From Streptomyces sp. NBC_00178 (GTDB taxonomy: Bacteria; Actinomycetota; Actinomycetes; Streptomycetales; Streptomycetaceae), in NCBI RefSeq assembly GCF_036206005.1, contig NZ_CP108143.1, positions 1,116,001 to 1,180,000 on the forward strand: a stretch of DNA of 64,000 nucleotides, given 5' to 3'. A program made the translations under genes and the position numbers. The notes under the pieces are model-generated. The model did no database searches. It was given only the letters and a program-made list of their open reading frames with translations, and was not told where the DNA came from. Below, piece by piece: positions 12,644-34,659 of this stretch (the stretch's first letter is position 1; each line of letters opens with the position of its first letter).

Positions 12644-15600
12644 TCAGGCCCCGGTCCCCGCCCTCCGTGGTGCGGGCAGGAAGCCCGTGCGCTGGAAGTG
12701 GGCCAGGTAGCGGGCCAGGATCTCGTCGCTCAGGTGCGGCAGGTGGATACCGAGGGCGGCGGCTGCCTTCGCCGTCCTGCTCGAGTCGAAGTGCCGGCGG
12801 TCCGAGGTCTCCTGAGGGGACCGGTCCTCACCGAGGAACAGCTGCGCCGCGTTGTCGTGCTGCGCGGCGACGCGGGCGTGCCACGACTCCGCCGGGACGG
12901 TCGCCAGTTCGTGGCCGAGGAGGGCCGCCGTGCCGAACACGCGGTCCAGGCCCGGTGCGTCGGGGTTGGTGAAGTGGTACGTGCCCGTGTCTCCCGGGCC
13001 CGACAGGGTGAGCGCCACGACCGCCGCGCTGACGTAGTCGACGGGCACCCAGTCGGTCGTCCCGTGGGGCAGGTCCGGTACGGCTTCCGCCTGGAGACAG
13101 CCCTTGATGAGCTGCCACAGCAGGTCGCGGTCCTGGCAGGCGCCGGTGGTGGTGTCGCCGCTGATGCGGCCGGGCCGGTGGACGGTCACGGGCAGGCCGC
13201 GTTCACGGGCCAGGCCGACGATCCCCTCGGCGACCCACTTGCTCCGCGCGTATCCCCCGGTCAGCCCGGAGGCGGAGCCCACCGGCGTCGACTCCGTGAT
13301 GACGACGGGGCCGGGCGCCGGGGCGAAGACGCTCGTGGTCGAGATGTAGTGCATCCCGGGTGAGTCGGAGTCCGCGAGCAGGCGCAGCAGTTCCTCGGTG
13401 CCGGCCACGTTGGGTGCGCGCAGATCGCCGTACCCGGCCGCGAAGTTGACGCGTGCGCCGTTGTGCAGGACGGGTCCGAGGCGGCGTGCCAGGGCGGCCC
13501 GGTCCCCGGGGGCGAGGCCGAGTCCGGGGGCGGCGAGGTCGCCGGGGAGAGGGCGGATCAGGTCGGCGTACCGGGGGCGCCACAGGCCGTAGTGCTCCAG
13601 GTTGGTCCGCAGCCGGTCCGCCGCACGCCGCTCGTCCCCGGCGCGGACGAGGCAGTCGACCGGGCCGTCGGTGCTCTCGACGAGGTCCCGCAGGAGGAAG
13701 GCACCGAGGAATCCGGAGGCACCGGTCAGCAGCGGCCGGGGGGACGGGCGGGCCGGCCGGCCGCGGGCCGGGACGGGCACCCGGGGTGAACCGGCCCGTC
13801 CGGTCCCCGTGATGTCCCCGGCCAGCCGGATCTCGGAGGCGAGGTCGGGCTCGGGGAGGTCCGGCGGGTGTTCCTCACCCTCCGCACGCCGCAGGGCCCC
13901 GTCGACGCCCTCGACGGTGGGGGCCGCGAACAGGTCGCGCAGGTGGAGGCGCGTGCCGCACCGTTCCTCGATCCGCCGGGCGAGGGTCACGGCGAGCAGC
14001 GAGTGGCCGCCCAGCGCGAAGAAGTCGTCCGTGACTCCCACGCCGGGCACGCCCAGGGTGTGGGAGAACACCTCGCACAGCGCGCGTTCGCGGGCGGTGC
14101 GGGGTGCGCGGCCCCCGGTCTGCGCGGCCGGTCCGGGTGCGGGCAGGGCGCGCCTGTCGGTCTTGCCGTTGGGGGTGACGGGCAGAGCGTCGAGGCGTAC
14201 GTGCGCGGCGGGGATCATGTGACTCGGCAGGGTGGCGGCGAGGTGTGCGCGCACCTCGGCGTCGTCGGGGCCCGCAGCGCCGTCCGCCGGCACGGTGTAC
14301 GCGACGAGCCGCCGGTCGCCGGGACGGTCCTCGCGGACGACGGCGCAGGCCGCGGCGACTTGGGGCATCGCGGCGAGCGCGACCTCGATCTCGCCGAGCT
14401 CGATGCGGAAGCCGCGCAGCTTGACCTGGTCGTCGACGCGGGAGACGTAGACGAGTTCACCGTCGGCCGTCCAGCGCACGAGGTCGCCGGTTCGGTACAT
14501 GCGGCCTCCCGCGCGGTCGAACGGGTCGGCGACGAAGCGGGTGGCGGTGAGGCCCGGACGGCCGTGGTAGCCGCGGGCCAGCCCTTCGCCGGAGACGTAC
14601 AGTTCGCCGGTGACGCCGGGCGGCACGTGCGCCAGCCGGTCGTCCAGGACGTGCACCCGGGTGCCGTCGACGGGGACGCCGACGGGCACGGTGCGGTCCG
14701 GGGCGAGCGGCCCGTCCGCGTGCTGGAAGGCGCTCATGGTGGCGCACACGGTGGTCTCCGTGGGGCCGTAGGCGTTGGTGAGGTGACGGTCGCGGGCCCA
14801 GGCCCGCGCCAGGGCCGGCGGGCACGCCTCGCCGGCGAGGACCACGGTGGTTCCGCCGGGCAGCGAGCCGGGCGGCATCACCGCGAGGGCCGCGGGCGGC
14901 AGGGTGAGGTGGGTGATGCCCCGCTCCCGCACGAGGGATGCGAGGGCGGGCCCGGGCAGCAGGGCCTCGCGCTCGTCGATCTCCAGGCAGGCGCCGGAGA
15001 GCAGGCCCATGCACAGCTCCCAGAACGCGGCGTCGAAGCTGACGGACGCCATGTGCAGCACCCGGCTCCCAGGGGCGACGCGCAGCCGCCGGATCTGGGT
15101 CCCGGCCATCGCGTGGACGCCCCGGTGGGGGACCACGACGCCCTTGGGGCGCCCGGTGGACCCGGAGGTGTAGATGACGTAGGCCGGGTGGGCCGGAAGC
15201 GGAAGGGGTACGGCGCCGGTGTGCGCGTCCGTGGTGACGCCGATGTCTCCGGTGTACAGGTGGGGCACCCGCGACGCCGGGAGGCGGTGGTGGACGGCGG
15301 GCGTGGTGAGGAGCAGGCGCGGCCGGGCGTCGTCGAGCATGTGGGAGAGGCGCCGCGCCGGGTATTCGGGGTCCAGCGGCACGTACGCCGCCCCGCTCCG
15401 GAGGATGCCGAGCAGTGCCACGACGAGTTCGTGGGTGCGGGGCAGGGCGACCGCCACCCGGTCCTCGGGGCCGATGCCCCGGGCGGTGAGGTGGCGTGCC
15501 AAAGCATCGGCGCGCTCGGCGAGTTCACGGTAGGTGAGGGTGGTCGAGGCGTCGCGCACGGCCGGGGCGTCCGGGGTGCGCCGGGCCCATCGCTCGAAGA

Positions 15601-18600
15601 GGGCCGGGAACGTCTGTGCGGGGCCCTCCGCGACGGGGCCGGTCCCCCAGGCGGCGAGGCGGGTGCGCTCGGTGGTGGTGAGCACGTCGTACGAGCGCAG
15701 CGGGCGGTCGGGGTCGGCGGTGACCGCCGTGAGCAGCAGCACGAGCCGCTCGGCGAGTCCTCGGACGGTCGCCGCGTCGAAGAGTTCGGTCGCGTAGTCG
15801 ACCGCGGCCCGCATGCCGGTGGGCGCCCCCTCGTCGTCGTACGTCTCGGTGAAGCTGAACGACAGGTCGAACTTGCTGACTCCGGGGTCGACGGGCACGG
15901 CGCGCACGGTGAGGCCGGGCAGGCCGAGGGGGGCGGCGGGGGTGTGGTTCTGGAGGACGAGCATGGTCTGGAAGAGGGGGTGGTGGTTCCGGGAGCGGGC
16001 GGGGTTCAGCATCTCCACCAGGCGTTCGAAGGGAACGTCCTGGTGTGCGTACGCGGAGAGATCGAACTCCTTGACCCGGTCGAGCAGTTCCAGGAACGTC
16101 GGATCGCCCGTCAGGTCCGTGCGCAGGACGAGGGTGTTCACGAAGAACCCGACGAGCTCCGAGGCCGCCTCGTCGTCGCGTCCGGCGACGGCGGTGCCCA
16201 GGGGGATGTCGTCACCGGCTCCGTGACGGGAGAGCACGACCGAGAGTGCGGCCTGGAGCACCATGAAGACGCTGCACCCGCGGCCGCGTGCGAGCTCGGC
16301 GATCCCTCGGGCCGTCGTGCGGTCGAGGGCGAACGGGTGGGTGGCGCCGGTGTGCCGGGGCACGGCGGGACGCGGCCGGTCCCACGGCAGGGTGATCGTC
16401 TCCGGAAGTCCGCGCAGGGCTTCCCGCCAGTGGTCGAGCTGGTGGGCCGCCAGGCTCTCGGGGTCGTCCTCGTCGCCGAGCAGATCGCGCTGCCAGAGGG
16501 TGTGGTCGACGTAGTCGACGGTGAGTCGTGCCCATGCGGGCGCCTCGGCGCGGGCGCGGGCCCGGTAGGCCGTCCCGAGGTCGCGGGCGAGGGGCGCCAG
16601 CGAGGTGCCGTCCGCCGCGATGTGGTGGATGACGAGGACGAGGACGTGGGCGTCGTCGCTCAGCCGCAGCAGGGTGCCCCGGATCGGCAGGTGCTGCTCG
16701 ATGTCGATCGTCTCGCTCGCGGCCGCCCGGAGCCGGCCGGGGAGCGTGTCCTCGTCCACGGTCCCCAGGGTCAGCGGGAGGCCGGCGTCCTCTGCGGCGA
16801 CGACGTGCTGGCGCGGGCCTCCTTCGTGCTCGGGGAAGACGGTGCGCAGGGCCGTGTGGCGGGTGAGGACGTCGCGCAGGGCACGCCGCAGGGCCGGCAC
16901 GTCGAGCGGTCCGTCGATGCGCACGGCGAAGGGGATGTTGTACGTGGCCGAGGGCCCCTCCAGCCGGTGGAGGAACCACAGCCGTCGCTGGGCGTGGGAC
17001 AGCGGGATCGCCTCGGGGCGCTCCTGCGGTACGAGGGCGGGACGTGCGGGCCGGGCCGTCGTCTCCAGGGCGGTGGCGAGGGCGGCGACGGTGGGGTTCT
17101 CGAAGAGGGTGCGGATCTCGGTCTCGGTGCCCAGTGCGGTGCGCACGCGGCCGACGAGGCGGGTGGCGAGCAGTGAGTGGCCGCCCAGGGCGAAGAAGTT
17201 GTCGTCGATGCCCACGCGCGGCACCCCGAGGACGTCCGCGAACAGTCCGGCGAGGATCTCCTCGCGGGCGCTCCGCGGCGGGCGGCCCGCCGCGCTCTGC
17301 GGGGTGAGAGGCACGGGCAGGGCCGCCCGGTCGAGTTTGCCGTTCGGGGTCAGCGGCAGCGCGTCGAGCGGCTGGACGACGGCGGGCACCATGTACGCGG
17401 GCAGTTGGCGGCCGACACCCGCGGCGAGCAGGTCCGGGTCAGGCGCGTGGCCGGCCGCGGGGACGACGTAGGCGGTGAGGACGCGGTCCCCCGGCCGGTC
17501 CTCGCGCACCAGGACGTGGGCGGCGCGCACAGAGGGGTCGGCCAGGAGCGCCGCCTCGATCTCGCCGGGTTCGATCCGGTGGCCGCGCAGTTTGATCTGC
17601 TGGTCCGCCCGGGCGATGTGGTGGAGGGCGCCGTCGGCACCCCATCGCACGAGGTCCCCGGTGCGGTACATGCGCGCGCCGTCACCGGCGAACGGGTCGG
17701 CGGTGAAGCGGGTGGCGGTGAGGCCGGGGCGCCCCAGGTAGCCGCGCGCCACTCCGGGGCCGGCGACGTACAGTTCGCCCTCGGCGCCGGGCGGTACGGG
17801 GCGCAGCGCCGCGTCCAGCACATAGGCGCGCATGCCGTCGAGCGGACGCCCGACCGGGGGTACGCCGCCGGGTGCGTCGCCGGGGCCGACCCGGTGGAGC
17901 GTGGCGAAGGTGGTGGCCTCCGTCGGCCCGTAGGCGTTGAGGACGACGGTGCCGGGGTGGTCGGCGGCCAGGCGCTGGAGGACACCGGGCGCGGCGGCCT
18001 CGCCGCCGGCGGCTGCCAGGCGCAGCAGGCCGAGGGCGCCGGGGTCCGTCTCGGCGATGACGTTGAACAGGGCCGTCGTCAGGAACGCCGCGGTCACCCC
18101 GTGCCGGGTGACGAGATCCCGGAGCACCGCGGGCTGGAGTGTCCCCTCGGGGGCCACGACCACACGGCCGCCGTTGAGGAGGGGGGCCCAGATCTCGAAG
18201 GTGGAGGCGTCGAAGACGTACGCCGAGTGCATCAGCACCGCGTCGGCCGCGCCGCCGCCCCAGGTGCGGTCGGCCGCGAGGGCCGTGATGTCGGCGTGGG
18301 TGACGCCCACGGCCTTGGGCAGGCCGGTGGAGCCGGAGGTGAACACGACGTACGCGAGGCCGGCGCCGCCGGTGAGCTCGGGGAGGGGGCCGGGAGCCGC
18401 GGGGTGCCCCTCCTGGAGCCGTCCGGCGGCGTCGACGGTCAGCACGGCGACGTCGGGGCCGAGTCCGCGTACCCAGGGGTGCGTCCTCGTGGTGCCGTCG
18501 GTGATCACGGCGCGCAACGGGGCCACCTCGGCGACCCGGGTGAGCCGTTCGTCCGGCCAGCGCGGGTCGAGGGGTACGTAGGCGGCGCCGGCGCGCAGCG

Positions 18601-34647: not shown

Positions 34648-34659
34648 GCCGGACGACAC

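Follow-up and report, generated by a model that had tools for sequence, protein, structure and literature searches.

A six-module, reductase-terminated peptide synthetase unit, conserved among Streptomyces and predicted to make an N-acyl hexapeptide aldehyde

Among the closest described systems are the flavopeptins, which passages of PMC8009326, PMC4071589, PMC10548850 and PMC8949500 present as N-acylated peptide aldehydes from a reductase-ended nonribosomal peptide synthetase (NRPS) of Streptomyces sp. NRRL F-6652; excerpts of the first three report low-micromolar activity against two proteasome sites and activity against cysteine proteases. Here we analysed a 64,000-nucleotide stretch of DNA (hereafter the window), which lies roughly 1.13 Mb into contig 1 of a two-contig genome of 7.38 Mb and whose genus appears to be Streptomyces, judging from the nearest named relatives. 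Its NRPS locus comprises an MbtH-like gene and two large NRPS genes, and we consider its probable product to be N-acyl-(Val/Ile)-Gln-(Val/Ile)-D-Gln-(Val/Ile)-phenylalaninal, likely a reversible covalent protease inhibitor. By their descriptions, the two systems have in common Streptomyces, an NRPS ended by an NAD(P)H reductase and an N-acylated peptide aldehyde, here a predicted one. On the evidence of its domains, the locus is a member of the NRPS kind that begins with a starter condensation domain and ends in a reductase, and it is likely, though unproven, that it belongs to the flavopeptin class.

The name flavopeptin presumably points to S. flavogriseus. The synthetases of linear gramicidin, myxochelin, aureusimine/phevalin and koranimine also end in a thioester reductase, but they differ from this locus in module number, codes and N-terminus, and the products of these systems are an ethanolamide, a catecholate, and cyclic pyrazinones or imines. 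The NCBIfam models of MxcG and AusA matched far below their cut-offs. Tyropeptin, leupeptin, chymostatin and antipain are shorter actinomycete peptide aldehydes made by other gene clusters.

In the list of open reading frames (ORFs), two large minus-strand frames span positions 12644-34659 of the window. The first, NRPS1 (ORF 20206-34659, 4817 aa as an open frame), likely starts at ATG 34647, because this codon stands directly behind a leader conserved in an alignment of 18 loci; the resulting protein (20206..34647, minus strand, 4813 aa) has the order C1-A1-T1-C2-A2-T2-C3-A3-T3-C4-A4-T4-E, where C, A, T and E denote condensation, adenylation, carrier and epimerization domains. The second, NRPS2, was listed as ORF 12644-20419 on the minus strand before its start was reassigned to a likely GTG at 20209 (12644..20209, 2521 aa; C5-A5-T5-C6-A6-T6-R, with R the thioester reductase). 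This GTG overlaps the NRPS1 stop codon in the sequence GTGA, and the resulting length fits the 2500-2540 aa of NRPS2 in most of the relatives listed. Upstream of NRPS1 lies the gene of an MbtH-like protein (35119..35337, minus strand; 72 aa; PF03621, 88.6 bits), a likely partner of the A domains. None of the three genes contains an internal stop.

The Pfam scan found five Condensation, four AMP-binding and four PP-binding stretches on NRPS1, and two of each of these three together with one NAD_binding_4 domain on NRPS2. With the NCBIfam models added, the totals were six adenylation domains, seven condensation-type domains (one of them an epimerase by position), six carriers and one C-terminal thioester reductase, and the motifs followed in the order C-A-T four times, E after T4, then C-A-T-C-A-T-R. 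Among the families that Pfam listed for the two NRPSs there was no thioesterase, and the reductase reached 288 bits against NCBIfam TIGR01746 (Thioester-redct; cut-off 213). The locus is thus an NRPS of C-A-T modules with a terminal reductase in the position of a thioesterase, and the six modules with a terminal reductase of the original prediction were borne out by the ORF list, Pfam and the motifs.

To place these proteins among their relatives, we used a T6-R search that returned 766 proteins at E <= 1e-60, for which the 7980 candidates sharing most words were scored; the best 120 of the 766 showed 68-95% identity over the T6-R part. In the matching E-domain search, the best 120 of 1152 proteins included many other long NRPSs at 37-52%. 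All 120 T6-R matches and those E-domain matches of 4100-4900 aa entered the code alignment, and six rows below 60% identity were left out, giving 52 NRPS1 and 121 NRPS2 rows with the window included. The C, T, E and R motifs were intact in the window proteins. Across the rows, those of C2-C4, C6, E and the carriers and the YxxSK-type motif were conserved with minor variants, and the C5 motif was conserved in all but two gapped NRPS2 rows. Because orthologues share the Pfam set of the window proteins, the aligned catalytic motifs and near-identical codes outside A5, the six-module architecture is confirmed as real, far beyond chance.

We then read the pocket codes of the A domains twice, by motif and by column alignment, with the boundaries of A1 set by hand; the codes from column alignment are given here, and those read earlier by eye agree with them. 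All six domains lie on the minus strand. A2 (28426..29937) carries DAWQVCLVD and A4 (22024..23547) DAWQVCLID, both predicted to load Gln: they match, at six and seven of nine places, the Gln codes DAWQFGLIDK and DAWQTGLIDK given in Table 2 of PMC2866473. A6 (14141..15622), with DAWTVAAVC, is predicted to load Phe, since it agrees at seven of nine places with the Phe-pocket residues of GrsA in the part of PMC11253843 used as reference, and both differences are I to V. A1 (31666..33222) and A3 (25231..26727) both carry DAFFVAVTF and are predicted to load Val or Ile, and A5 (17312..18817), with DAFFAAATF, has a pocket that varies within the family and is predicted to be hydrophobic. Gln at positions 2 and 4 and Phe at position 6 are well supported by these codes, in agreement with the assignments made earlier, and Val/Ile at positions 1, 3 and 5 would be a fair guess.

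These codes were conserved across the family. DAFFVAVTF was found in A1 of 42 of the 52 NRPS1 rows and in A3 of 46, and DAWQVCLID or its LVD form in A2 of 48 and in A4 of all 52. Every one of the 121 NRPS2 rows had DAWT[V/A/T]AAVC in A6, and A5 showed 18 forms and one gapped row. Orthologues from S. pratensis (P0042, P0107 and P0195) had the same codes as the window apart from A5 and from A2, where I stands in place of V.

The E domain (20230..21747, minus strand) is the fifth PF00668 stretch of NRPS1, at 109.5 bits, and is labelled an epimerase because of its position after T4 and its low C score. Its HHLAIDA motif is intact, and HHLA[VI]DA was present in 52 of 52 NRPS1 rows. T4 carries the GGDS form, which we take to go with E domains, and C5 (18830..20203, minus strand; HHILLDG), which follows the E domain, is likely of the DCL type, a label based on the N-terminal motif LTPLQEGMLFH. 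Residue 4 should therefore have the D configuration, as was claimed before from the single epimerase in module 4. With matching codes and an E domain in module 4 alone, the predicted hexapeptide has Gln at positions 2 and 4, the latter as the D form, and Phe at position 6.

C1 (33250..34617, minus strand; HHIAVDG) had the lowest Pfam score of the six C domains, 160 bits as against 272-306 for the others. Its closest solved relatives were the starter domain of RzmA (RzmA-Cs, PDB 7c1k, 8e-59) and the first C domain of CDA synthetase I (CDA-C1, 4jn3, 1.2e-56), which agrees with the N-acyl start of the original prediction, and C1 can be assigned, from these matches and its intact HHxxxDG motif, to the starter (lipoinitiation) type. 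With the starter C domains of the rhizomide synthetase RzmA and of CDA (PDB 7C1H/7C1K and 4JN3), it has in common the HHxxxDG motif and the position of the acyl pocket, whereas the remaining RzmA and CDA assembly lines presumably differ from this locus. According to passages of PMC7804268, RzmA-Cs uses acyl-CoA and its R148 sets the chain length; stepwise shortening of this residue to Gly lengthened the RzmA acyl chain from C2 to C8 or C10, and the place is Arg in RzmA and Met in CDA. The alignment of C1 with RzmA was free of gaps from the HHxxxDG motif to the R148 place, at which the window has Gly; among the 52 NRPS1 rows, window included, Gly was found in 50, with one Ala and one gap. From this residue, our best guess is that the N-acyl cap has a medium chain length.

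R (12665..13747, minus strand) carries TGASGFLG, STTS and YARSK motifs. The nucleotide motif and the Tyr-Lys motif were kept, with minor variants, in 121 of 121 NRPS2 rows, and the five commonest forms of the STT motif made up 82 of the 121 rows. Taken together, these domains suggest the following route. C1 would acylate the first residue from an acyl-CoA of primary metabolism, probably with a chain of medium length, each A domain would load its own residue with MbtH assisting, and residue 4 would be inverted by E. The peptide would be handed from NRPS1 to NRPS2, where a hydrophobic residue and Phe would be added, and R would use NAD(P)H to reduce the thioester on T6, freeing the aldehyde. A target protease could then attack the aldehyde carbon through its catalytic Ser, Cys or Thr to give a hemi(thio)acetal, meeting Phe at P1, residue 5 at P2 and D-Gln at P3. 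The targets are likely cysteine, chymotrypsin-like serine or proteasomal proteases. Streptomyces peptide aldehydes released by R domains, the flavopeptins, are reported in parts of PMC8009326 and PMC4071589 as inhibitors of proteases and the proteasome.

Several points weigh against this structure. The code of A1 and A3 had no close characterised match; with codes other than the characterised ones it agreed at five to six of nine places, six being reached with one predicted Ile code and with one further Ile code. A5 agreed at six places at most, with that further Ile code, and the identity of residue 5 appears least certain given its highly variable pocket. Against the known Ile code in the consulted part of PMC2866473, A1 and A3 matched at four of nine places. 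The length of the acyl cap is read from a single residue across a distant pair of domains, the three-gene unit contains no gene for a protease target or for self-protection, and in the literature consulted no metabolite is known for the cluster.

The odd positions could thus hold other small or branched residues instead of Val or Ile, which would leave the architecture unchanged and give a different peptide. DAFFVAVTF and DAFFAAATF have no good match among known codes, no paper turned up in a text search of the literature for these codes, whole or cut to seven letters, and A301 occupies a place where Val/Ile codes usually have Gly. However, A236, F239 and F278 together with T330/F331 resemble Ile and Val codes, and D235, present in this type of pocket, leads one to expect an amino acid substrate. 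On balance we regard a substitution of this kind as unlikely. Of the earlier (Val/Ile) assignment at these positions, the hydrophobic type of the codes stood, and the choice of Val, Ile or another residue did not become firm, since the code matches were weak.

A further point against the aldehyde concerns its release, since the R domain may yield an alcohol instead, and the sequence does not decide between the two. R would then reduce twice, and the same acyl hexapeptide would leave as a phenylalaninol with no covalent warhead. The PDB entries that matched R alone, among 60 of 101 matches, were 8v1x (named a type I polyketide synthase) and MxaA (4u7w), the latter presumably a four-electron enzyme. 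In the passages of PMC8949500 available, a second reduction by R domains is described as general and a free aldehyde as occasional, with the flavopeptins among the aldehyde exceptions. Since the flavopeptins, which are themselves products of R-ended Streptomyces NRPSs, are reported as aldehydes in excerpts of PMC8009326, PMC4071589 and PMC8949500, we consider release as the alcohol quite improbable; the Phe-type A6 code that precedes R in 121 of 121 rows suits a P1-Phe warhead and would suit an alcohol equally. Finally, it is very improbable that the aldehyde serves as an intermediate, either for capture by some enzyme from outside the cluster or for cyclisation to an imine as in pathways of the koranimine, nostocyclopeptide or aureusimine type: such fates occur in some R-domain NRPSs according to parts of PMC8949500 and PMC7586950, but the N-terminal amine should be acylated by the starter-type C1 and not free, which makes head-to-tail imine closure unlikely, and the conserved unit includes no tailoring gene, lacking in particular any gene for an aldo-keto reductase, an aminotransferase or a thioesterase that could convert the aldehyde.

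With the acyl hexapeptide aldehyde kept as the probable product, and the earlier interpretation supported as a whole, none of the contrary findings named with it having appeared, what is new is that the assembly line is a widespread orthologue family; this and the MbtH gene are additions to the original prediction. Among 295 genomes of the genus, 172 had a match at 1e-30 and 21, the window's own included, had one at 59-100% identity, with the listed places below these 21 reaching at most 47%. In a sample of 200 genomes of the family, 12 genomes (own included), in five of 17 genera, matched at 1e-140. From a scan of named genomes, 76 loci were retained, and the first 35 of them (L009-L043) were 57-78% relatives; nearly all of these were named Streptomyces, plus one Actinacidiphila and [Kitasatospora] papulosa, and most later loci were short partial matches or showed 26-39% identity. 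In one relative (L089, G082:C1:471648-473138), the R part lay in a 645-aa open frame, its NRPS2 being interrupted or misassembled.

The conserved unit MbtH-NRPS1-NRPS2 measures 22.7 kb from the MbtH start to the NRPS2 stop. MbtH and NRPS1 were both present in 17 of 18 upstream stretches (those of 17 relatives and of plasmid NZ_CP054927.1), the exception being G158, one of three 59-62% relatives, in which the first synthetase is apparently split over two frames. The surroundings of the unit were not shared. We clustered the genes within 8.4 kb upstream of MbtH at more than 45% identity, taking frames of at least 90 aa called by codon G+C from the window along with 17 other loci, and the 18 flanks formed 16 separate neighbourhoods, with genes shared only within the pairs window/L116 and L126/L129. 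Downstream, the commonest shared gene occurred in seven of 35 loci, and DNA conservation dropped directly after the NRPS2 stop in 35 aligned sequences. The annotation of a linear, 608-kb S. microflavus plasmid shows MbtH, NRPS1 and NRPS2 in the same order, with different flanking genes. These different sites could result from transfer or from rearrangement of chromosome arms, and the plasmid copy favours transfer. On this plasmid, NZ_CP054927.1 (L085), the whole unit occupies 344200-366917; the plasmid is typed as mobilizable, and transposase genes lie within 5-10 kb to either side.

Neighbouring genes of the window were considered as members of the cluster and rejected. A P450 gene (about 36163-37413, plus strand, divergent from the cluster) and a gene for a Rieske protein (37626-38066, plus strand; its N-terminus resembles a twin-Arg lipoprotein signal by eye) are neighbours of the cluster solely in the window and in L116, its sister (91% and 96%); in the remaining 17 stretches of the 18, the Rieske gene was absent, and a P450 occurred in L130 alone, at 34%. 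The same applied downstream to a HipA-like kinase, short-chain dehydrogenases/reductases and a solute-binding protein, as 10 of 12 left-hand genes had no match over half their length in the 35 loci, and the two dehydrogenases/reductases each matched in four loci with 33-36% identity; in a few of the 35, little or no downstream DNA was present. The HipA_2-family kinase gene itself (10321-11205) lies just downstream of the NRPS genes and is not conserved with them.

Two noncoding elements accompany the unit in the 18-locus alignment. The strongly conserved, cluster-specific leader AAAACTCTCCCCAAAGGTGT (34656..34675, minus strand) stands just upstream of the NRPS1 start and contains a likely ribosome-binding site. 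Its exact 20-mer occurred once each in eight of the 295 genomes, all among the 21 orthologue holders, leaving 13 holders without the exact form, and the reversed 20-mer, used as control, gave no match in the 295 genomes. The block TCTAATGTGAT (35549..35559, minus strand), about 210 bases before MbtH, is possibly a promoter or operator. It lies within a region, 35338-35700 of the window, where the conserved blocks TCTA.TGTGAT and GCATATG.C precede MbtH and may have such a function. The conserved upstream blocks fell within the 450 bases aligned before MbtH, and no outer edge of the conservation was found in that alignment. A scan for sigma-70-type promoters found none.

We also compared how the six pockets vary. 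Summed over the nine pocket places in 30 strains with paired NRPS1 and NRPS2, the entropy was 1.19 bits for A1, 0.93 for A2, 0.82 for A3, 0.21 for A4, 3.81 for A5 and 0.00 for A6. Nine columns drawn at random from the same A4-A5 stretch served as the control. Relative to these, the pockets of A1 (P 0.019), A2 (P 0.012), A4 (P 0.006) and A6 (P 0.004) were more conserved, that of A3 was borderline (P 0.07), and that of A5 changed at the background rate (P 0.53). Accelerated evolution of the A5 pocket was therefore rejected: it varies like its neighbouring columns, indicating relaxed rather than accelerated change. The A5 changes were mostly V/A at 299, A/S/T at 301 and A/V at 322, and they could reflect a tuned or relaxed P2 or leave the substrate unaltered. 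Tentatively, and as an idea that we hold to be rather unlikely, the unit might be a self-contained, relocatable protease-inhibitor cassette, placed at another site in nearly every species compared and also on a linear plasmid, with a fixed frame and a fixed phenylalaninal warhead, in which only P2, set by module 5, is free and lineages tune it to different proteases.

General concerted evolution of A1, A3 and A5 was likewise rejected, as A1-A3 identity was 0.667 within and 0.664 between strains. This comparison, like that of the pockets, used 30 strains, the window's included, in which NRPS1 and NRPS2 were paired by eye from organism or contig names; at least S. cyaneofuscatus and S. atroolivaceus were joined by species name across different contigs. 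In G023 (L133/L134), a 62% relative, the DNA of A1, A3 and A5 was mostly 97-100% identical; the identity has sharp edges, A3 contains a diverged patch, and from this pattern recent gene conversion among the odd modules of this relative is likely.

The host genome holds two further NRPS regions (G000:C1:163486-170537 and 768380-775186) and a second MbtH gene at 758349, about 10 kb from another NRPS region. Some 310 kb away from the cluster stand two neighbouring genes of the proteasome family, likely those for alpha and beta. If the predicted product is correct, many streptomycetes would be equipped, by one small gene set, with a covalent inhibitor of proteases that keeps its frame and varies at P2, which would amount to a ready natural series of protease and proteasome inhibitors. 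The three-gene module would be small enough for heterologous expression, and would offer a direct route to the role that peptide aldehydes play for their producers, in a host that itself carries proteasome genes.

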